Positions 2,983 to 33,028 of a stretch of 33,168 bases of DNA are shown piece by piece. The translations under genes were made by a program, and so were the position numbers. This DNA comes from a bacterium (GTDB lineage: Bacteria; UBA9089; CG2-30-40-21; SBAY01): contig JBFLYA010000014.1 of NCBI GenBank assembly GCA_040757115.1, positions 1 through 33,168 on the forward strand, read 5' to 3'. Within the stretch, counting starts at the first letter, position 1. Every line of letters starts with the position of its first letter. Below the pieces are notes generated by a model. That model ran no database searches and was not told where the DNA came from. It saw only the letters and a program-made list of their open reading frames with translations.

Positions 2983-3139
2983 CTTTTCGTTCCTTGTAAC
3001 TTTATTATATTTCACCACAGAGACGCAGAGAGCGCGGAGAGTAAGATTTCCTCTTCTAAACCTAAAACCATTCTTCTCATTCCATGTTTTAGCACATACT
3101 TTAAAATCCTAAATTCCAAATTCTACATTGGAATTTATT
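2983..3139. other. gene-free repeat DNA upstream of cobF
   Basis: Contains a CACAGAGACGCAGAG-type arm (about 3014-3030). Its inverted partner lies at about 3597-3625, on the far side of the GGTGGTGTCT element, so that element appears to have landed inside an older inverted repeat. The last 8 bases (AATTTATT, 3132-3139) are the left target duplication of the element. I see no promoter that I trust. Confidence 0.5.
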
Positions 3140-3560
3140 GGTGGTGTCTTAATCTAGCATAAAGGTTAAAATAGTGTATAGGGTTCTGCAAAATAGGATT
3201 TGAGGGAGACAACAAATAAATATCAAATATAAATATCAAAATGCAAAATTACAAATCAAATTTCAAAAAGGACGGGACGGTTCCTTTTATCGTTTTTCCT
3301 ATGATTTTTGTTGGAAATTGGAAATTAGAAATTGGGCTTTTGTCTCTCTCCCTAATTTCCAATTTCAATCCGCAATCTTTCAAACAAAAGTGAACCGTCC
3401 CAAAAGGATTTCTATTTTAACGCTGAAAGGAAAGAGATAATTTTACATTTTGATATGTAATTTTTATATTTGCTTTTTGCATTTTGCTCTTTGGAGGAAA
3501 TCCCTTTTGGACACCAAATCTGCATAGATTTCACTATTAGAGTTATTTTCAGACACCACC
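3140..3560. mobile_element. GGTGGTGTCT-ended element with 8-bp target duplication, copy 1
   Basis: Perfect 10-bp inverted ends (GGTGGTGTCT at 3140-3149, AGACACCACC at 3551-3560) are flanked by a perfect direct repeat AATTTATT (3132-3139 and 3561-3568), which proves transposition. The interior matches the element at 22760-23262 in inverted orientation. It keeps the first about 11 codons (from the ATG at 3241) and the last about 10 codons (SILTLKGKR, stop near 3440) of a four-helix-bundle gene. The middle is replaced by a nested 128-bp element. No transposase is visible. Confidence 0.85.
3274..3401. mobile_element. nested GGGACGGTTC-ended mini-element
   Basis: The ends are GGGACGGTTC (3274-3283) and GAACCGTCCC (3392-3401), perfect 10-bp inverted repeats. 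The flanks are AAAAGGAC and AAAAGGAT, a probable 8-bp target duplication with one change. The interior holds inverted GGAAATTGGAAATT-like words. It sits in the coding remnant of the larger element, so it arrived later. No gene. Confidence 0.65.
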
Positions 3561-3636
3561 AATTTATTTATCCACGGATTAATTCATTTATATTCATCTT
3601 CTCTGCGTTCTCTGTGCCTCTGCGGTAAATAGTTGT

Positions 3637-6600
3637 TTAAATTTTCCTTCTAAATCCCAGGGCAATCAACCCAATAAATATGAGGAAGCCAGCAATGAAT
3701 AAATACGGAATTGGGGCAGATGAGATACCGTCTGCCGTCTTCACTTCCTCCATCTCATACCCTTCAACCTGTGCCAGAGGTGCTATCTTTTTTGCCTTAT
3801 CACCAGGGGCTATAGTTTTTTGTTTGGTCTCTGACCTCTGACTTCTGTCCTCTGCCTTCTGCCTTCTGCCTTCTGCCCTCTGCCTTCTGCCCTCTGACAT
3901 CTGACTCTGTGCCTTCATAAACCCTTGCATCTGAACCTTTGAGCCAGGCACAGACATTAGCACCTGGCGGGTAAACTGTGTCAGCAAGGGATTGTTGCAG
4001 GTATGGTCACAGCAGGCAAGACCAACCTCCTGGACGCTCCGGGCATATTCCAGGGCAAGGGTTTCTATTATTTCTTTCTCTGGTTTCCAGTATTTCTTTC
4101 GCACACATTCAAGCATCCTGGCGACAACAGATTGATATGCCCACATATTTTTTGAACTGCGAAACATATCCTTTATTCCCAGTTCGTTTCTATCCAGGAT
4201 GTATGTTTCATACATCTCATTCCATTTAGCCGCATCTATCGCCTCTGGCACGGTTACCTGCCAACCCCAGAGGTATTCGACGACCTTATCTATAAATCGA
4301 GACCCGGCATAGCCCTCGTTCATCATTGCCTTAATCCATTCAGGGTTCAGATACCTTGCACGCATTTCTCGTCCCATAAATTTTTCAAGGGTTTCCTGTT
4401 TTGGTTGACGGGGATTGGACATATTGGTTACATAAACCTCTGGTGTTTTCCCATCAATGGAACGGATTGCCATTGCCGTGCCACCAAGATATTGGAAAAA
4501 GTCGTCATTATCAAGCGTGGCATAGACATTGCCCGAGATGCTGTGCACCGCTACTTTTGTTCCGGAAAGGGCATTCTTAAACAGCAGAAGGCTTATATCC
4601 TCATCCAGCTCCTCCGGTCTGTTACCTTGTTCTATCTTAGTTCCCCAGAACCCCTGTCCATAGAGATGGCTCATCCGCATCAGATAGACATCAGCTACCT
4701 GTTTTTCGTTATCCCAGGTGTTGGATAAAGGAATAAGATTAGATAAGTTTGTTCCGTAAGCACCAGAAGGCACGGTAAAAAGCCGCACCGATGCCAGCCG
4801 TTCTGCCATATCCTCAGAAATGCCTTTTTCCATAAGTATCTTCTTTGCCTTAAGGATATTTAGCCGAATGATGTTGTCCGTCTCATCCTGCTGCTTTGCC
4901 AGGGATACGGCTTTATCCAGCAAATCCATAAGGTTGGAGAACAGGTCACGGTAGAGCCCTGAGGGAACAATAGTCACATCAATTCTTGCCCGACCAAGCT
5001 CATACGCTGGTATTGGTTCAACCCCGACTACCTCCTTTCGCTCATTCCATTTTGGTTTTATGCCCATCAAATACATAATCTGCGATTCCATCACCCCTTC
5101 ATGACGGATGGTTTCTATCCCCCAAAGATTGAAGGTGAGCTTATCCGGATATTTGCCATGCCGATTTTTATACCCATCAATAAGTTCCTTTGCCAATTTC
5201 ACTCCCATCTCGTAGGTGGTTTTGCTGGGTATCCTCCTCGGGTCAAATGAATAGAAGTTCTTGCCTGTGGGCAGTGAATCAGGATTACGAATGGGGTCAT
5301 TGCCCTGACCAGCCGGGATATATCTGCCTGAAAGTGCGGCGATGAAAGAATCAAGCTCCCTTTGTGCTGATTGGATTATCCTCTGCTCGTAATCAGCGAG
5401 TCTCTGGGCAGAAGATTCTGTGCCCAATATTGCTTCAGCCGTAGTCCTGATGTATCTTTCCTCTGGGGCACGGCCAAAGGTATGCATACCAAAAGGTGTC
5501 TGCTTCTCCCCAATATCCTGGAGGTAATGCTCCACCTCCTCAACATCTTCTTCTGTTTTGACTTCGGCAATCTTAAGGTCAGTCAATAACCCAATCCGTC
5601 GGGCAAGGTTATTAATCTCTGCAAGTTTTGTTTCAGCCAAAGACAGACTTTTCTCCCTTGCCACATTGTAATCATTAATCAAGCCTGTTAGCTCTCTCAG
5701 TTCTTTATTCAGCCTCGCCTTATCAAATGGTGGGGTCAAATGGTCAATGATGACCGCCATTCCCCTTCGTTTTGCCTGTAACCCTTCGCCAACATCATCA
5801 ACGATATACGGATAGATATTTGGCAGATGCTGGATTAATGCCTCTGGTGGGTCGTTTTCGGTAAATCCAACCTCTTTGCCCGATAACCACTCATGGGTGC
5901 TGTGTTTGCCGATATGTGCCACTGCATCTGCCGAAAAAACCTTTTTGAGCCACAAATAAAAGGCAACATATTGGTGATGTGGACTAAGGGTAACACTGTG
6001 ATAGAGTTTTTTGACATCCTGCTCCCAACCGCGTGAGGGTTGCGGCATAAAAAGGATATTCCCATACTTCACCGCCGGGATAACAATGTATTTCTTTCCT
6101 CGGTCATCTGTCCATGTCATAATCTTGCTATCCTCTGGCCGTCCCCAGTCTCTGAGCATAGCCGTGGCCATCCCTTGCGGCAGTTCTTCAAACCATTGTT
6201 TGTAGAGGTTCATTGGAATAAGCACTGGTTTGCCTGTTCTCACCAACCTATCCAATTCCCCTGGCGCCCAATTGCCAATATTCCTGCCGTAAGTAAGAAT
6301 ATCATTGAAGAGCATCTCCTTCTTAATTTCCCCGGTCCCAAAATCATATCCTTCTATCTTCATTCGCTGTAATATCTCCCACAGGCTTTCTGGCAGGACA
6401 TTGAGATACGATGCCCCAACATTTTGCTTGCCCGGGGGATAGTTATAATAGATGATGGCAATCCTTTTGTCCCTGTTGGGTTTATCCTGCAAATTTATCC
6501 ATCCCTTTACACGGTCAATGAGTCGCTCAACCCGTTCAGGGATTGGTCGCTCTTCGATGTATTCAATTCCATTTTCAACCATCCTTTCCCTTGAAGCAAT

Positions 6601-7599
6601 AACCGTGGGCTGGCTAATTCCAGCCATCTCCGGACCCGCAATCTGCCAGGAACGCTCAAAGATATTAAGTCCAACTGCAGATGCCTCCCATTCTTCTTTC
6701 GATTGGGTGTAAAGGGGAATGGCATTAATCACTGGCACATTGAGTCTGGTGAGTAAAGGGATAACGACTTCTGGCTTGATCCCTAATTTCATACTATGAG
6801 CTACGAGGCAATGTATCCTGCTCTTGCCTTCTTCATCAAAGAAAAACCGCTCAATGGGAATTTCGGGTGGATAGCCATAAACAGGAAGAACGCTAAACCC
6901 TTCCTGCTCTAAAGATTCAATCACACTATCCACGGTCAAAAGATTACCTGAGTCAAAATTGCTTTTGTAAAAAAGAACCCCAACCCATTTATCACCATTC
7001 GGCTGGTAGGATTTTAAGAACTCATTCAGATTTGCCACCACCCGTCTCTCTTTTCTAAGATAGATGCCAGACTGAGGAATTGGAGATGGCTCTTTCCATG
7101 GTAGTTTAAGCCCAAAATCACGGCTCAAGACAAAAAGCAACATATTCCTGATATTCTCAAAACCATTCTCCTTGTAGTATGCATTAATCTGTTCATCGTC
7201 GATGATTCCCATATCCTGATGCTCTTTGCTATAAATTCCTCCAAAACCATAAACCTTACCGCCATTTTTTACGACCTGTTTAATGTAAGGCTTTGCCAGT
7301 TCCACAACCTGACGGTCCATAATCCGAAGAAGAAAGACAACCTTTGAATCTGCAATCTCTTCCGCGGTTTTGAGTCTATTCTTAATAGAATATGAGGTAT
7401 AGACCTTGAAGGCAACTTTTCCCGAAAGATGTGGATATTCTTTTTGTATGGATTTGACTGTGTCGAGGGCGAGCTTTGAATGGGTATCGCCAGGCATCAG
7501 GCTAATCGTTAAAGGTTGTGCCTGTCCAGAAGACAGAGGACAGAAGACAGAGCACAGAATAATACAAAACATACATATTCTATCAATGGTTTTTATCAT
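3637..7599 (-). CDS. cobN: CobN/HmuS-like chelatase large subunit, exported and membrane-anchored
   Basis: 1320 residues covering the whole CobN/BchH chelatase fold: domains start near residue 30, and the C-terminal third carries conserved runs such as FNLWGIETIRHEGVMESQI, PSGLYRDLFSNLM and PSGAYGTNLSNLI. CobN is the large subunit of the ATP-dependent cobaltochelatase that inserts cobalt into hydrogenobyrinate a,c-diamide. Here residues 1-26 look like a signal peptide, and residues about 1298-1316 form a membrane helix followed by FRRKI, so the body should face the periplasm. That layout is unlike cytosolic CobN and recalls the anchored HmuS branch tied to haem metal removal. cobF and cbiE downstream favour a corrin role. 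Repeat DNA encodes the signal core and a linker at about 1235-1260. An AAGGTG box precedes the ATG. Confidence 0.85.
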   Translation of the reverse strand: MIKTIDRICMFCIILCSVFCPLSSGQAQPLTISLMPGDTHSKLALDTVKSIQKEYPHLSGKVAFKVYTSYSIKNRLKTAEEIADSKVVFLLRIMDRQVVELAKPYIKQVVKNGGKVYGFGGIYSKEHQDMGIIDDEQINAYYKENGFENIRNMLLFVLSRDFGLKLPWKEPSPIPQSGIYLRKERRVVANLNEFLKSYQPNGDKWVGVLFYKSNFDSGNLLTVDSVIESLEQEGFSVLPVYGYPPEIPIERFFFDEEGKSRIHCLVAHSMKLGIKPEVVIPLLTRLNVPVINAIPLYTQSKEEWEASAVGLNIFERSWQIAGPEMAGISQPTVIASRERMVENGIEYIEERPIPERVERLIDRVKGWINLQDKPNRDKRIAIIYYNYPPGKQNVGASYLNVLPESLWEILQRMKIEGYDFGTGEIKKEMLFNDILTYGRNIGNWAPGELDRLVRTGKPVLIPMNLYKQWFEELPQGMATAMLRDWGRPEDSKIMTWTDDRGKKYIVIPAVKYGNILFMPQPSRGWEQDVKKLYHSVTLSPHHQYVAFYLWLKKVFSADAVAHIGKHSTHEWLSGKEVGFTENDPPEALIQHLPNIYPYIVDDVGEGLQAKRRGMAVIIDHLTPPFDKARLNKELRELTGLINDYNVAREKSLSLAETKLAEINNLARRIGLLTDLKIAEVKTEEDVEEVEHYLQDIGEKQTPFGMHTFGRAPEERYIRTTAEAILGTESSAQRLADYEQRIIQSAQRELDSFIAALSGRYIPAGQGNDPIRNPDSLPTGKNFYSFDPRRIPSKTTYEMGVKLAKELIDGYKNRHGKYPDKLTFNLWGIETIRHEGVMESQIMYLMGIKPKWNERKEVVGVEPIPAYELGRARIDVTIVPSGLYRDLFSNLMDLLDKAVSLAKQQDETDNIIRLNILKAKKILMEKGISEDMAERLASVRLFTVPSGAYGTNLSNLIPLSNTWDNEKQVADVYLMRMSHLYGQGFWGTKIEQGNRPEELDEDISLLLFKNALSGTKVAVHSISGNVYATLDNDDFFQYLGGTAMAIRSIDGKTPEVYVTNMSNPRQPKQETLEKFMGREMRARYLNPEWIKAMMNEGYAGSRFIDKVVEYLWGWQVTVPEAIDAAKWNEMYETYILDRNELGIKDMFRSSKNMWAYQSVVARMLECVRKKYWKPEKEIIETLALEYARSVQEVGLACCDHTCNNPLLTQFTRQVLMSVPGSKVQMQGFMKAQSQMSEGRRQRAEGRRQKAEDRSQRSETKQKTIAPGDKAKKIAPLAQVEGYEMEEVKTADGISSAPIPYLFIAGFLIFIGLIALGFRRKI
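3828..3908. repeat. in-frame heptamer array inside cobN
   Basis: About eleven tandem 7-nt words of the type CTTCTGC/CTCTGAC. Read on the coding strand they give a 7-residue period (EGRRQRA, EGRRQKA, EDRSQRS), because three heptamers make 21 nt. The segment forms a charged linker just before the C-terminal anchor. Confidence 0.85.
7527..7557. repeat. heptamer array encoding the signal-peptide core of the CobN-like protein
   Basis: GACAGAG/GACAGAA words on the plus strand, the same word family as at 3828-3908 but in opposite orientation relative to the gene. On the coding strand they read as the hydrophobic stretch LCSVFCPLSS of the signal peptide. Confidence 0.8.
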
Positions 7600-7887
7600 T
7601 TCTACACCTTACCTTCTAAAAAATCGGGGTTCGGAACTCGGGACTCGGGGTTCGGGACTCGGGAATAAAAGAATCCCCGACCCCCGAAATCGGAACCCCG
7701 AGTGCCCGAATCCCGATTTTCATCATCCTTGTGAGCCGTAAGACTAAATGAGGGTCTCTCCCTATTTTATCCGTGCTAATCCGTGTTAATATGTAGTAGG
7801 TGGTAGGTGGGATGTGGGATGTATGCTTTCCCACCTACCACCTTCCATCTACTACCTACCATCAGTGGCTGAATAGTTACTTTATTT
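7600..7887. repeat. gene-free spacer of heptamer arrays between vorB and cobN
   Basis: From 7622 to about 7713 it consists of CGGGACT/CGGGGTT heptamers followed by their inverted partner (CCCCGAC, CCCGAGT). At about 7715-7740 is a degenerate member of the hairpin repeat seen five times at 15843-16510 (TTTTCATCATCCTTGTGAG). From 7796 to 7862 GTAGGTG heptamers face CCACCTA words, another inverted pair. A GTAACTATTCAG element end (read on the minus strand) lies near 7871-7882. No gene, and no promoter I would defend. Confidence 0.7.
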
Positions 7888-27023: not shown

Positions 27024-27259
27024 GTAACCGTTCAGGTGGTGTAACAAAAGGAGATGTGGAGATTAAGGAGATAGGGAGATATTATAAAAAAATTGAAATT
27101 AATAGAAACTAATAGAAATTTATGGAAATTTGTTGTTTTCCACAATCAATTTCTACCTATTTCTATAAATTTCAATCTATTTCTATTATCTTATCTCCAT
27201 ATCACTCTTATCTCCTTATCCCCTTTCTTACACTTTTGATATATAGCCTGAACGGTTAC
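27024..27259. mobile_element. MITE-like element with GTAA ends, copy 2
   Basis: GTAACCGTTCAGG...CCTGAACGGTTAC with perfect inverted ends and an interior nearly identical to 898-1134. It lies 45 bp upstream of tupA, between it and the end of the TPR-ATPase gene. No target duplication is evident. Confidence 0.75.
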
Positions 27260-27483: not shown

Positions 27484-30400
27484 TTATGCTTTTAGAAGAT
27501 TTAGGCACTTCTGATACCAGGGATGCTCTCTGGGAAGGGTCTTCTCAAAGATGCTTAATGCCAGATTAAATAACTTAATCGCCTCCTCCTTCTTCCCTGT
27601 ATCACGATAAGCAATTCCTAAGTTCATCTGGCATAAGGCATAATCTGGATGGTTCTGCATCTGGTTATCTTCATATATCCTTATTGCCTTCTGATATGCC
27701 TCTATTGCCCGCTCATAGTCTAATTTGTTCCGATAAGCCTCCCCTAAGTTCATCTGGCATAAGGCATAGTCAGGATGGTTCTGCATCCTGTTCTGCTCAT
27801 ATATCCTTATTGCCTTCTGATATGCCTCTATTGCCCGCTCATAGTCTAATTTGTTCTGATAAGCCTCCCCTAAGTTCATCTGGCATAAGGCATAGTCTGG
27901 ATGGTTCTGCATCTGGTTATCTTCATATATCCTTATTGCCATCTTAAATGCCTCTATTGCCCGCTCATAGTCTAATTTGGCATCATAAGCAAGTCCTAAG
28001 TTCATCTGGCAGCCGGCATATTCAGGATGGTTCTGCATCTGGTTGGCAGAATAAATCTTAATCGCCTCTTGATATGCCTCAATTGCCCGCTCATAGTCTA
28101 ATTTCTCCCAATAAGCAGTCCCTAAGTTCACCTGGCATTTGGCATAGTCTGGATGGTTCTGCATCTGGTTATCTCCATATATCCTTATTGCCTTCTGATA
28201 CGCCTCTATTGCCCAGTCATAGTTTAATTTGCCAGCATAAGCATTCCCTAAGCTCATCTGGCATAAGGCATAGAATGGATGGTTCTGCATCTGGTTTGCA
28301 GAATAAATCTTAATCGCCTCTTGAAATGCCTCAATTGCCCGGTCATAGTCTAATTTGCCATCATAAGCAATCCCTAAGTTCATCTGGCATAAGGCATAGT
28401 CTGGATGGTTCTGCATCTGGTTATCTTCATATATCCTTATTGCCATCTTAAATGCCTCTATTGCCCGCTCATAGTCTAATTCCTTAGCATAAGCAATCCC
28501 CAGTCTCTGCAGTTCATCAGGAGATATTGGCTCTTGAGGTAATTCTTTCTTTTCTTTTTCTTCCTTAAAAGGCAATATTTGTTTTATAATCTCTGTGATA
28601 ATTTCTCTTACCTCTTTGGTTTGGCGATTGATAATGTCCTCATTGGGTGTTTCTAAATACCCGGCAATTATCCTTAAGGGAAAGAGAAAGGCTACTTTAT
28701 CCTTTATCTCAGATACCTCAAGGGTATCAATGAAATATAGGACACTCTGAGGTCTATTTTCTTTTAAAATCTCAATAAGAAGCTGAACAAGGAGACGCTC
28801 AAAGCCTACCTCCTCTTCCTTGATTTTATTCTTATCCAGGATAATTCTGATTTTAATGAGTTTATTTATATATTCTTTCATCCTTTTAAGATTCTCTTTA
28901 AGGGCTAAATCAAGGGTTGCATCCACATAGAATCTAAGTAATAGTGCCAGGCTTGATTTAATCTCTAATCCCTCTTTTTCTAAAAGTGCCAGGTCAGTAA
29001 TCTTTTCCAGGCAGGTTAGTGTCTCTTCATACCGACCAAGTAAATTCAATACTGACACTTTATTTATCAAGGATTGAATATCTTGCGGGTCTTTCTCTAT
29101 CGCTTTATTAAAGCAATTAAGGGCTTGTGCATAATCACCAAACCTGAGAAATGCCTTTCCCCTACCAGCCCAGAGGGAGGGAATATCTGGATATTGGAAG
29201 ACTGCCTGGTTATAATATTCTAATGCATCTTTGTCCCAGGCTATCTTTAATAGCCTTTCTCCCTTATCTACTATCTCTTTTATCTTCCTCTTTTTTACCT
29301 CTTTGAGATAGCTCAGGTGCACCTCAATCAAGTTTCTCTTTTGAAAAGAATCCACATTTTTACATTCCTCTTCCATATTTTCTATCTCTAAATCAAGTTC
29401 TGGGAGTGAATACCAGAGGCTGATGAACCTTAAAAGCCATTCAAACCTCTTTCTCTGAGTAGTAGATGAGCGCATCTGATACCATATTCTAAATAACTGT
29501 TCTACGACATCATAATAGAATGTGCCTCTTTTTTTCCCTTTTTGCACAGGTTTAAGGTATCCATCATCCACTAATACCTTGATCACAGCGGTTGTCTTAT
29601 TGAGGGGGAACCTCAAGAGTTTTGCAATGTATGAAGGAGAGATACCTTCTTCCATATCAGTAATATCTATCTTAGAAAAGCCTGCCATAATCTGGCGTTT
29701 TTGGGGAGATAATGCCTCCATCTTTGCCTTAAAATATGGGGTCATTTCACTGATAAGTTTATCAAAGGCATCTTCTACCGCGGGGAGTTTACCCGCAGTA
29801 AGTATCTGGAATAGAAAGAGGAGTAAGCGCGGATTCCCACCTGTCAAATGATAGATAGACTTAATCCTCTGTTCATAGGCAGCAAAAGAGGTAAGTATTT
29901 CCTGGTGCTCAATAGCGGTTGCCCAATTTTTAATAAAGATAAGACCTTGCTCAACAGGTAGCTCAACTAAATTTATCCTTTGAAAAAGGTGGTATAAGGG
30001 AGCCTTATAATCGATGACCTCTTTGAATACAGTAGCGGCACTACCAATAAGTAGCAGGATACCTTCATCCATAAGGAATGTCCGTAGCCTCTTTAAGGAT
30101 AAGGAATCCATAAACCCTGAACTAAGGATCTGGTCAATATTATCTACCAAAAGTAGTATCTTCCTTTTATTATTAGTGGTGAACCTTTCAAGAGAGGCGA
30201 TAATCTCATCCACTAACTTGCGGTCATCCTTTTCATCCTTAATTCTTGCTTCAATCCCATTCATCCAATCAGGAAGGCTACCTAACTCATCTCTTATCTC
30301 CTCAACGAGCCGTTCAAAGAAACCCCGTAAATTAACCACAGTATACTCCTCTTCTGCAAATTGGAGAGGGAGCCATTGTTGCGGAGACTCTTCCTTTATC

Positions 30401-30597
30401 CTGAAGTAGAGCATCCTTAAGAGATGTGTTTTCCCAATTCCCCTTGGACCAGTAATAAGATAATGTTGTAGGTTCTTGTAGTCAGATTGGGCTTTGATAT
30501 TAGATACCATCTCTTCAAACAATTCTTCCCTGCCCGTAAATGTGGCTTTGAGCTCATCATATTTATAATTTAGTGGGTCATAAGGGTATATCTTCAT
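27484..30597 (-). CDS. large ATPase with winged-helix and TPR repeats (STAND/MNS-like)
   Basis: 1037 residues. ATPase: Walker A GPRGIGKT (50-57), Walker B LLLVDNID (148-155), a sensor-like LLLIGSAA (181-188) and GGNPR (253-257), a pattern of the archaeal-ATPase/MNS clade related to STAND switches. A winged-helix-like segment follows at about 300-375 (SPSYIAKLLRFPLNKTTAVI). Then come ordinary TPRs at about 455-535, a helical stretch, and eight C-terminal 42-residue TPRs, of which seven are nearly identical (27622-28503). This architecture suits a nucleotide-dependent switch that reads a protein ligand through its repeats. The ATG at 30597 overlaps the upstream stop (ATGA) and has GGAG 8 nt upstream. 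Function unknown; sensor or effector-controller is inference. Confidence 0.85.
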   Translation of the reverse strand: MKIYPYDPLNYKYDELKATFTGREELFEEMVSNIKAQSDYKNLQHYLITGPRGIGKTHLLRMLYFRIKEESPQQWLPLQFAEEEYTVVNLRGFFERLVEEIRDELGSLPDWMNGIEARIKDEKDDRKLVDEIIASLERFTTNNKRKILLLVDNIDQILSSGFMDSLSLKRLRTFLMDEGILLLIGSAATVFKEVIDYKAPLYHLFQRINLVELPVEQGLIFIKNWATAIEHQEILTSFAAYEQRIKSIYHLTGGNPRLLLFLFQILTAGKLPAVEDAFDKLISEMTPYFKAKMEALSPQKRQIMAGFSKIDITDMEEGISPSYIAKLLRFPLNKTTAVIKVLVDDGYLKPVQKGKKRGTFYYDVVEQLFRIWYQMRSSTTQRKRFEWLLRFISLWYSLPELDLEIENMEEECKNVDSFQKRNLIEVHLSYLKEVKKRKIKEIVDKGERLLKIAWDKDALEYYNQAVFQYPDIPSLWAGRGKAFLRFGDYAQALNCFNKAIEKDPQDIQSLINKVSVLNLLGRYEETLTCLEKITDLALLEKEGLEIKSSLALLLRFYVDATLDLALKENLKRMKEYINKLIKIRIILDKNKIKEEEVGFERLLVQLLIEILKENRPQSVLYFIDTLEVSEIKDKVAFLFPLRIIAGYLETPNEDIINRQTKEVREIITEIIKQILPFKEEKEKKELPQEPISPDELQRLGIAYAKELDYERAIEAFKMAIRIYEDNQMQNHPDYALCQMNLGIAYDGKLDYDRAIEAFQEAIKIYSANQMQNHPFYALCQMSLGNAYAGKLNYDWAIEAYQKAIRIYGDNQMQNHPDYAKCQVNLGTAYWEKLDYERAIEAYQEAIKIYSANQMQNHPEYAGCQMNLGLAYDAKLDYERAIEAFKMAIRIYEDNQMQNHPDYALCQMNLGEAYQNKLDYERAIEAYQKAIRIYEQNRMQNHPDYALCQMNLGEAYRNKLDYERAIEAYQKAIRIYEDNQMQNHPDYALCQMNLGIAYRDTGKKEEAIKLFNLALSIFEKTLPREHPWYQKCLNLLKA
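27622..28503 (-). repeat. seven tandem 126-bp TPR-coding repeats
   Basis: Each unit encodes 42 residues: LG-x-AY-x-x-KLDYERAIEAYQ and then KAIRIYEDNQMQNHPDYALC, ending QMN. Unit boundaries fall every 126 bp from 28503 downward. Long stretches are identical at DNA level between units, including silent positions; the residue after LG, the two after AY and a few inner sites differ. An eighth, diverged unit ends the protein (27484-27621). Confidence 0.95.
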
Positions 30598-32063
30598 TGC
30601 CTTCTCCACCAATCTTTAAGTATTTTGCAGAAAAAGGAATATTTGCCCTCATTATCCTTTTCAACATAGAACTCATCTGATAGATAGGTAAGTATTTCTC
30701 TGAAATCTTCTTTATCTTCCTTGCCTGAATACTCCTTATACCATTCAAATAATTGGCTTTCAGAGACCTTATCCTCAAGGGAAAGGCGTTTTAAAAGACC
30801 AGCTAAGAAGATATATGGATGAGATTGTAATCTCTGGAAGAAGTAAAAGAAGTATTGTTTGTAGTCTGGACCCAATATCTTCTCCTGATATATCCTTTTA
30901 ATCTCTTCTGGTGTTATCTTTTCTTTGACCTCACAAAGAAGCATCTGGATAAAGTAAGGGACACCTTGTCCAACCAGGTTAAAGACCTCTTCTTTGACCT
31001 CATCTTTAATCCTTATCTTCTTTGAAAGAAGGAGTTCATCAATAAATCTTAATGCCTCATCTTTTGAAAGGGGTGGTATCTTAACCTCTATAAAGTCATT
31101 AAAAAACCTATCAAGTGAGTGAGATTTAAGGTATTGATTAAGGCAGACAGAACTTGCGATAAGGAAACGAAGTTTATTCTTCTTCCTTTGCTCAAAGAAC
31201 CATTCAGCAAAGGAGGAAGCCTCTTCTTTTTTAAAATTCTCCATCATATAGATAAATTCATCGAATAGCAATAGGAAATAACTATGGTTGGGAATCCTTT
31301 CAAGGAGCTTTCCCAGGAAATCTTCACCCATTTTTTGCCAGGTGTTATCCTTTACCATCTCCTCAATCTGCATTTTTAAAGAAAGGTTATCCATGCCACT
31401 GGGATTATACATTTCTATTATCTCCTCAAATCCTCTATTTTTTTCTTGTGTGCAGAAGCGAGCTATCATCTCTGCCACAAATCCTTTTGGGTGGTGGATA
31501 TGTTGTAGTTCTAAATGAAGTGTCTGCCAGGCAGGCTTTGGGTGGTCATAGAGGTAATACATACAAGAGGTTTTGCCAAATCGCCGTGGAGCGCTTAAAA
31601 AGATATTTTCAGTCTTAAGCTTTTCCCATAAACCTTCAATAAATTCTTCGCGATTGTAGAAATTATCCCCTCGCACTACTGCCCCAACAATGTTGTTCGG
31701 ATAGATATACCGCTTACCCTGCTTTAGGCTCAAGAGATGTTTCTTAAACAGGTATTCTTTAATCTTTCCGGAGCTGGCATTGTAAAATTCCTCCTCAAAA
31801 AGGCAATGCACCTCTTCCTTAGTCAACCCATACTCATAAAAAGGGAATTGAAGGAAGCTATAGACAGGAACATTCTCCATTTTCATATCCCCGCCAAATA
31901 CCTCTTTGATGAGTGCATTTACCCCTTTAAAGAGGGCTTCAAATCCAAAAGGGTCTTTTATAGATTCTATACCCAGAAAGAGAGGATAAATCTTTTTTTC
32001 GGTTGGAGATTCAATAAGGACTAAAAACCCACCTTTATCTAAAAAATTATCCATTTTTTTCAT
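30594..32063 (-). CDS. AAA-type ATPase with a novel N-terminal domain
   Basis: 489 residues. Residues 1-130 form a domain I do not recognise (begins near FLVLIESPTEKKIYPLFLG). The ATPase has GDNFYNREEFIEGLWEKL, Walker A SAPRRFGKTS (157-166), Walker B LLLFDEF (264-270) and an SSVCLNQYL sensor region, like the archaeal ATPase/ORC-Cdc6-related families. Residues about 385-489 look helical and winged-helix-like. It is coupled to both neighbours by ATGA overlaps. The ATG at 32063 lies only 1 nt after AGGAGG; a second ATG at 32054 has 10 nt and may be the real start. Function unknown; probably a partner of the larger ATPase. Confidence 0.8.
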   Translation of the reverse strand: MKKMDNFLDKGGFLVLIESPTEKKIYPLFLGIESIKDPFGFEALFKGVNALIKEVFGGDMKMENVPVYSFLQFPFYEYGLTKEEVHCLFEEEFYNASSGKIKEYLFKKHLLSLKQGKRYIYPNNIVGAVVRGDNFYNREEFIEGLWEKLKTENIFLSAPRRFGKTSCMYYLYDHPKPAWQTLHLELQHIHHPKGFVAEMIARFCTQEKNRGFEEIIEMYNPSGMDNLSLKMQIEEMVKDNTWQKMGEDFLGKLLERIPNHSYFLLLFDEFIYMMENFKKEEASSFAEWFFEQRKKNKLRFLIASSVCLNQYLKSHSLDRFFNDFIEVKIPPLSKDEALRFIDELLLSKKIRIKDEVKEEVFNLVGQGVPYFIQMLLCEVKEKITPEEIKRIYQEKILGPDYKQYFFYFFQRLQSHPYIFLAGLLKRLSLEDKVSESQLFEWYKEYSGKEDKEDFREILTYLSDEFYVEKDNEGKYSFFCKILKDWWRRQ

Positions 32064-32955: not shown

Positions 32956-33028
32956 GTAAGCGTTCAGGTGGTGTAACAAAAGGAGATGTGGAGATTAAGG
33001 AGATAGGGAGATATTATTAAAAAAATTG
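32956..33028. mobile_element. MITE-like element with GTAA ends, copy 3, interrupted
   Basis: GTAAGCGTTCAGG and the next 60 bp match 898-970. The match stops abruptly at 33028, where another element beginning GTAACTATTCACC is inserted. Confidence 0.7.

Follow-up and report, generated by a model that had tools for sequence, protein, structure and literature searches.

The stretch of DNA analysed here, 33,168 nt in length and called the window below, is contig C14 of the bacterial genome G000 (4.3 Mb, 462 contigs). On its minus strand it carries a gene for a large CobN-like protein in which two arrays of 7-nt repeats are read as protein, one as part of the signal peptide and one as a charged linker close to the C-terminus. 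The protein matches PF02514 (CobN-Mg_chel) over its whole length with 1043 bits, against a curated cut-off of 24.5, and its NCBIfam scores as a CobN or BchH equivalog all stay under the cut-offs (for example, TIGR02257 at 636 against 822 and TIGR02025 at 631 against 829). The interpretation that we favour, with a probability of roughly 0.8, is that of an old exported and membrane-tethered CobN-like chelatase whose tolerant edges appear to have been invaded by heptamer repeat DNA. The features on which the argument turns are the following.

3637–7599, minus strand: CobN/Mg-chelatase-H-like protein, 1320 amino acids, with signal peptide and C-terminal anchor (open reading frame (ORF) translation, Pfam, relative in the PDB).
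7519–7599, minus strand: signal peptide, residues 1–27, with an MIKTIDR n-region, a hydrophobic core and a cleavage-like site between GQA and Q (translation, hydropathy, homologues; cleavage site inferred).
7527–7559, minus strand: heptamer array TCTGTCY (coding strand), encoding signal-peptide residues 14–24 (Tandem Repeats Finder (TRF) period 7/14, 94% matches at period 14).
4045–7182, minus strand: CobN-type core, residues ~140–1185, not repeat-derived (Pfam and PDB alignments).
4606–4644 (approximate), minus strand: loop after HLYGQGFW; no array in the window copy, heptamers in Nitrospirota homologues and in the paralogue from the same genome.
3830–3916, minus strand: heptamer array CAGARGG (coding strand), encoding the charged linker, residues ~1227–1256 (TRF score 109, period 7/14/21).
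3652–3717, minus strand: C-terminal membrane anchor, residues ~1295–1316, followed by RRKI (kept in all 21 aligned homologues, hydropathy 2.4, predicted helix).
7624–7664, minus strand: heptamer array (TCCCGAG)n in the 5' leader; 24 nt separate it from the start codon.
7675–7720, no strand assigned: the other arm of the inverted pair formed with the leader array (repeats I6 and I18).

The N-terminal array has a TRF score of up to 59, and the signal peptide encoded there is MIKTIDRICMFCIILCSVFCPLSSGQAQ. For the linker array the TRF span is 3829–3916, with a score of up to 109; the encoded peptide is MKAQSQMSEGRRQRAEGRRQKAEDRSQRS, and the linker of the window copy carries EGRRQKAEGRRQ. Positions 3830–3861 and 7527–7558 are inverted partners (32 nt, 88% complementary). 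Period-7 identity is 57% in the linker and 26% in other segments along the gene (standard deviation 4%, maximum 43%). A sequence-only reading of the window had placed opposite-facing arrays of GACAGAG-type words at the two ends of the gene, at 7527–7557 and 3828–3908. Both TRF and the inverted-repeat match confirm that arrays of one heptamer family face in opposite directions at the two ends, and those coordinates are correct to within about 10 bases. The arrays exceed chance, but the literal word GACAGAG is not enriched: the window holds 3 copies against 2.3 expected. Nor does the opposite orientation carry extra weight. Genome-wide, the TCTGCC family has 335 matches to a 20-mer at no more than 3 mismatches, 173 forward and 162 reverse (reversed control, 0), so that two arrays would face in opposite directions about 50% of the time. 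The hydrophobic reading of one array and the charged reading of the other are likewise as described, but they follow from the genetic code for pyrimidine-rich and purine-rich sequence in general. We rejected a special significance of the orientation on these two grounds.

The signal peptide reaches its hydropathy maximum of 1.91 at residues 4–22. An SD-like (Shine-Dalgarno-like) AAGGTG precedes the upstream ATG, which counts against a start codon downstream of the N-terminal array; we also rejected such a start because the residues from the array to the next methionine (PLTISL) align with conserved residues of the homologues. The leader of the gene (7624–7720) is itself an inverted heptamer pair, of the unit TCCCGAG, directly before the SD and ATG. 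At the other end, the linker array lies upstream of the C-terminal membrane helix. In a model of the C-terminal 159 residues, the array-coded stretch is a helix of moderate confidence, followed by disorder and then by a confident membrane helix (predicted local distance difference test score ~96).

The two arrays belong to a genome-wide flood of such repeats. A census of a 1.87-Mb genome sample found 470 heptamer arrays with 95 different units, where a Markov-1 null gives 2. Most of them (380 of 470) lie outside ORFs of at least 150 amino acids, though such ORFs make up 78% of the sample. Intergenic TCTGCC arrays mostly share long flanks; the arrays in the CobN-like gene are without these flanks, and the idea that they are whole copies of a dispersed element is thus not supported. 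The TCTGCC-type unit is free of stop codons on both strands and therefore reads through in all frames.

Several other patterns emerged from the same sample. Of 159 pairs of neighbouring heptamer arrays no more than 250 nt apart, 59 are inverted partners, compared with 4.6% of random pairs. Arrays of the form (TTACCAN)n stand just upstream of an SD and start codon in one orientation, 27 sense and 0 antisense (for example, L138:5379-5419, L105:621-647 and L093:17127-17208); in G001, a congeneric genome with ~96% DNA identity to G000 at a test locus, the counts are 7 and 0. This repeat has the look of a leader element distributed genome-wide. Another element, a dispersed hairpin of ~100 nt, GAAAATAG...(TTTCTAC)n...CTATTTTCAGGAG, has heptamer arms and an SD-like end of its own. 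It is present in three tandem copies at 104-nt spacing in L108 (10884-11125) and recurs at dozens of further positions of the sample.

What the repeats contributed to the CobN-like protein can be judged from an alignment of the window protein with 20 related proteins (21 rows). The sequence-only reading had suggested that an export signal and a tether may have arisen from repeat DNA; on such a view, a cytoplasmic CobN would have become an exported and anchored protein. The position of the arrays, exactly at the signal core and at the linker, speaks for such an origin. However, the signal peptide ends just before a conserved (L/M)xGD motif in all complete homologues, which were compared down to ~53% identity and come from Nitrospirota, Nitrospinota, a Verrucomicrobiia metagenome-assembled genome and others. 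The anchor, APIPYLFxxGFLxF (APIPYLFxxGFLxFxGLI), is common to all 21 aligned C-termini and is not repeat-encoded. All complete close homologues have both elements, including those without arrays at these places, and the operons of the relatives (TonB receptor, TonB, DUF2162, MotA/ExbB and DUF2149 genes, then CbiQ, an hmu-like arrangement) are as expected for an envelope protein. Because signal peptide and anchor are present across the homologues, and the anchor is not repeat-encoded, we take the anchor to be ancestral and the signal peptide to be older than the overwriting of its core. Creation of the signal and the tether by repeats is accordingly very improbable.

A weaker part of the same proposal stands, as the residues at both sites come from heptamer DNA and are not simply ancient coding sequence: the paralogue and the homologues have different residues there, most of which do not match. 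Across the homologues, three parts vary: the linker (flanked by GFMKA and EGYEM), the core of the signal peptide, and the residues that precede this core. The paralogue from the same genome (C270, L016) has no arrays at the signal-peptide or linker site, and it has two different heptamers in the loop after HLYGQGFW, which is also heptamer-filled in Nitrospirota homologues. In the linker, five Nitrospirota/Nitrospinota genomes carry AGAGTCC-type heptamers, with five units in every one; elsewhere the linker unit is GTCGGCA (G010), AGCAGTC (G006), AGAAGAC or AGAGGAC (L035, L038) or CACTCAT (L046). In the signal peptide, TTTTCAC is found in G004 and TTCTGCC-like units in G003 and G006. The signal peptide of G010 is encoded by two arrays, a purine-rich one for the charged n-region and a pyrimidine-rich one for the hydrophobic core. 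The GTCGGCA array of G010 occurs only at its CobN-like gene, which points to local birth and expansion. The strongest period-7 segment of a protein's gene falls in the linker in 8 of the 21 rows, though the linker is 3% of the length, and in the N-terminal stretch (4.5%) in 5 of 21; with control periods from 4 to 15, multiples of 7 excluded, the linker holds the strongest segment in 0–3 rows.

The stretch before the signal-peptide core holds other dispersed repeats as well, of the SRESGNPEKNWIPCQARND type in Nitrospirota/Nitrospinota homologues (L031, L034 and L035 N-termini) and of the FAQRPH type in the N-terminus of L044.

The quality of the sequence is also at issue, and here it matters that genomes of other phyla, assembled independently, have arrays at these sites. 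Repeats may be collapsed or misjoined in a metagenome assembly; G000 is an assembly of 462 contigs, and arrays are hard to assemble. Nevertheless, the 3.96-kb gene stays in frame through both arrays, and G000 and G001 agree with each other in other in-gene arrays. We regard an assembly artefact as barely plausible.

If heptamer DNA is tolerated where its translation suits the protein, the readings chosen elsewhere in the genome should be informative. Among TCTG-type arrays inside ORFs, the charged strand is read in 10 of 11, and the sole hydrophobic reading is the signal peptide in the window. Over all units, 14% of internal arrays and 65% of N-terminal arrays are read as hydrophobic (Fisher p 5.5e-5). 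Array-built signal peptides are uncommon; besides the window gene, convincing cases come from L143 (a PorV-like protein) and L145 (an exported protein). Within the PorV-like family, signal peptides are array-built in C6, C44a and G001 and array-free in the paralogues C147 and C44b of the same genome. The PorV-like genes (L143:10469-11413, L208, L209, L164, L210) are otherwise similar and come with two versions of the signal peptide, and the array-built version resembles an arm of the (TTTCTAC)n hairpin element.

Changes in array length speak to how such sequences survive inside genes. At the test locus, an in-gene TCTGCC array differs between G000 and G001 by exactly 21 nt, the sole indel of that gene; the other three in-gene arrays compared (n=4) have the same length. 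For intergenic arrays, 47 clean comparisons between the two genomes were available, some of which may set separate copies of a single dispersed element against each other. The arrays differ in 21 of these; the difference is a multiple of 7 in 18 of the 21, and a multiple of 21 in only 2 of those 18. This pattern fits arrays that gain and lose whole units, with mainly three-unit changes surviving inside genes, since other unit changes shift the frame.

Frame shifts of this kind could also be put to use. If the two arrays acted as phase-variable switches, slippage by one or two units would leave one population with anchored, truncated and absent forms of the chelatase, which is an improbable outcome to our minds. 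It is similarly doubtful that a one-unit change in the linker frees the protein from the membrane or destroys it while a one-unit change in the signal array turns it off. The idea draws on simulated changes of +/-7 or 14 nt, which truncate the protein at 1260–1268 amino acids, before the anchor, when placed in the linker array, and at 27–34 amino acids when placed in the N-terminal array, as well as on the whole-unit changes of intergenic arrays described above. The degenerate units of the arrays, however, lower slippage, and the fixed number of five units in the Nitrospirota/Nitrospinota linkers and the constant length of the PorV signal array across species speak against frequent switching. 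One copy, L041, has its linker and anchor in different frames and was considered as a natural frame-switched form; its large deletion and additional stops mark it as a decayed gene, and we rejected it.

A further alternative is relaxed selection, in which the window copy is a diverging or decaying paralogue whose ends no longer matter, so that arrays accumulate. The copy sits on a long branch (0.30) of the family tree, and its catalytic motif reads HIGKHSTHEW (5880–5920, ~residue 565), where all aligned homologues that cover the site have (H/N)(I/V)GTHGTHEW. Its neighbours are CobF, CbiE and a VorB-like gene, and the hmu-type operon (TonB receptor, MotA/ExbB, DUF2149, DUF2162) is absent around it. 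A second copy, C270, exists in the genome. The window gene was not found in G001, and a search there for the empty site, using flanking DNA, returned mostly dispersed-repeat matches and no clear orthologous place. Yet the frame of 1320 codons is intact, the anchor is conserved, and heptamers fill the same sites in intact, operon-borne homologues of other phyla, so decay is not required. As a full account of the arrays, we consider relaxed selection unlikely, although it may have helped them to settle in the window copy, given its place outside the operon, the HIGKHST motif, the long branch and the failure to find the gene in G001.

Invasion of the tolerant edges of an old protein remains our preferred explanation, and several observations weigh against parts of it. 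The 21 family rows are related, and counts over rows therefore overstate independence. Several N-terminal arrays are in fact 5' leaders that lie in frame ahead of the true start, which inflates the contrast in hydrophobicity. Period 7 is present in just 4 of 236 signal-peptide-like N-termini of the sample, and a genome-wide excess of heptamers in signal peptides is only weakly supported. Finally, the three-unit rule rests on one event among four comparable in-gene arrays.

With these points in mind, the account can be put together as follows. Short arrays of a great variety of heptamers flood the genome, as the census shows. As seen among the homologues, the CobN-like family has its signal peptide and anchor from its ancestors; the parts that vary, and that hold other heptamers from lineage to lineage, are the linker, one loop of the core and the stretch ahead of the signal core. 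A stop-free unit of the TCTGCC type would be read through in any frame; its hydrophobic strand may be tolerated by a signal-peptide core and its charged strand by a linker, and selection would remove arrays that fit poorly. Once inside a gene, an array may change by whole units, with mainly 21-nt changes surviving. In this way, repeats probably rewrote a signal core and lengthened a linker that were both already there, without inventing export or tethering.

Such a process would offer a route into conserved genes to repeat DNA whose unit length is not a multiple of three, namely through stop-free heptamers that are readable in every frame and that survive where the hydrophobic strand suits a signal peptide or the charged strand suits a linker. 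Because the same few loops are heptamer-filled differently across phyla, this family could serve as a natural laboratory for the study of new protein segments derived from noncoding repeats and of how their frame is kept.

The window contains other repeats. Downstream of the CobN-like gene, 3128–3566 is an intergenic mosaic of dispersed repeats, of which a piece of 148–150 bp recurs with 98–100% identity at more than 10 other places in the genome and once in G001. Tandem repeats of 126/252 nt (27606–28500, ~7 copies) lie inside the ORF 27484–30612. At 922–1100, 27048–27225 and 32980–33013, the same tandem-repeat blocks recur and form an apparent dispersed element.

The closest solved relative of the protein by sequence is HmuS (9d26_A, E 2.6e-143), ahead of CobN (9uk9). 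HmuS is a heme de-chelatase of the CobN/ChlH fold with predicted membrane anchoring by helices at both ends (PMC12583661). The window protein shares this fold, and its relatives lie in an hmu-like operon. By sequence and prediction, its ends are a hydrophobic N-terminal segment, which we read as a cleavable signal, and a putative C-terminal anchor. Unlike HmuS (PMC12583661; PDB 9d26), it has no counterpart in the alignment to the methionine-rich insertion (domain IV, residues 780–898); its richest 120-residue segment holds 10 methionines and lies elsewhere. In place of the LSLDHxxEFMGG motif that contains His-1209 of HmuS, it reads TLDNDDFFQYLGG, with asparagine at the histidine position, as in most homologues. 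We rejected an identity as HmuS on these two residue-level features.

Other heptamer repeats have been described chiefly as intergenic (PMC4679880; PMC4692102). TAACTGA repeats of Beggiatoaceae, cyanobacteria and some Bacteroidetes (PMC4679880) resemble those described here in being dispersed direct repeats, many of which closely precede a start codon, and in their patchy distribution across phyla. They consist of one fixed heptamer, whereas a single genome sample here holds 95 units, some inside conserved genes. The GGGAATC/GGGGATT heptamers of Xanthomonas and Nostoc, which form G-quadruplexes (PMC4692102), are likewise essentially one unit type; the present units are diverse, and nothing implies a quadruplex in the TCTGCC family. 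The tandem repeats of Borgs are genome-wide and fast-evolving, and some of them lie in ORFs and create disordered protein regions (PMC9879509). Like these, some arrays of the present system are in ORFs, often of extracellular or membrane proteins, and produce low-complexity regions. In-ORF units of Borgs are divisible by three, in contrast to the 7-nt unit here, which gives a peptide period of 7 residues per 21 nt; most unit changes in the present arrays would shift the frame, and the arrays also form the core of a signal peptide. Lastly, a survey of frameshifting protein tandem repeats compared reference and frameshifted sequences in 50 proteomes (PMC12871928). There, as here, a frameshift can alter hydrophobicity and membrane regions; the CobN-like proteins differ in that one gene family has been colonised by different heptamers at the same sites.

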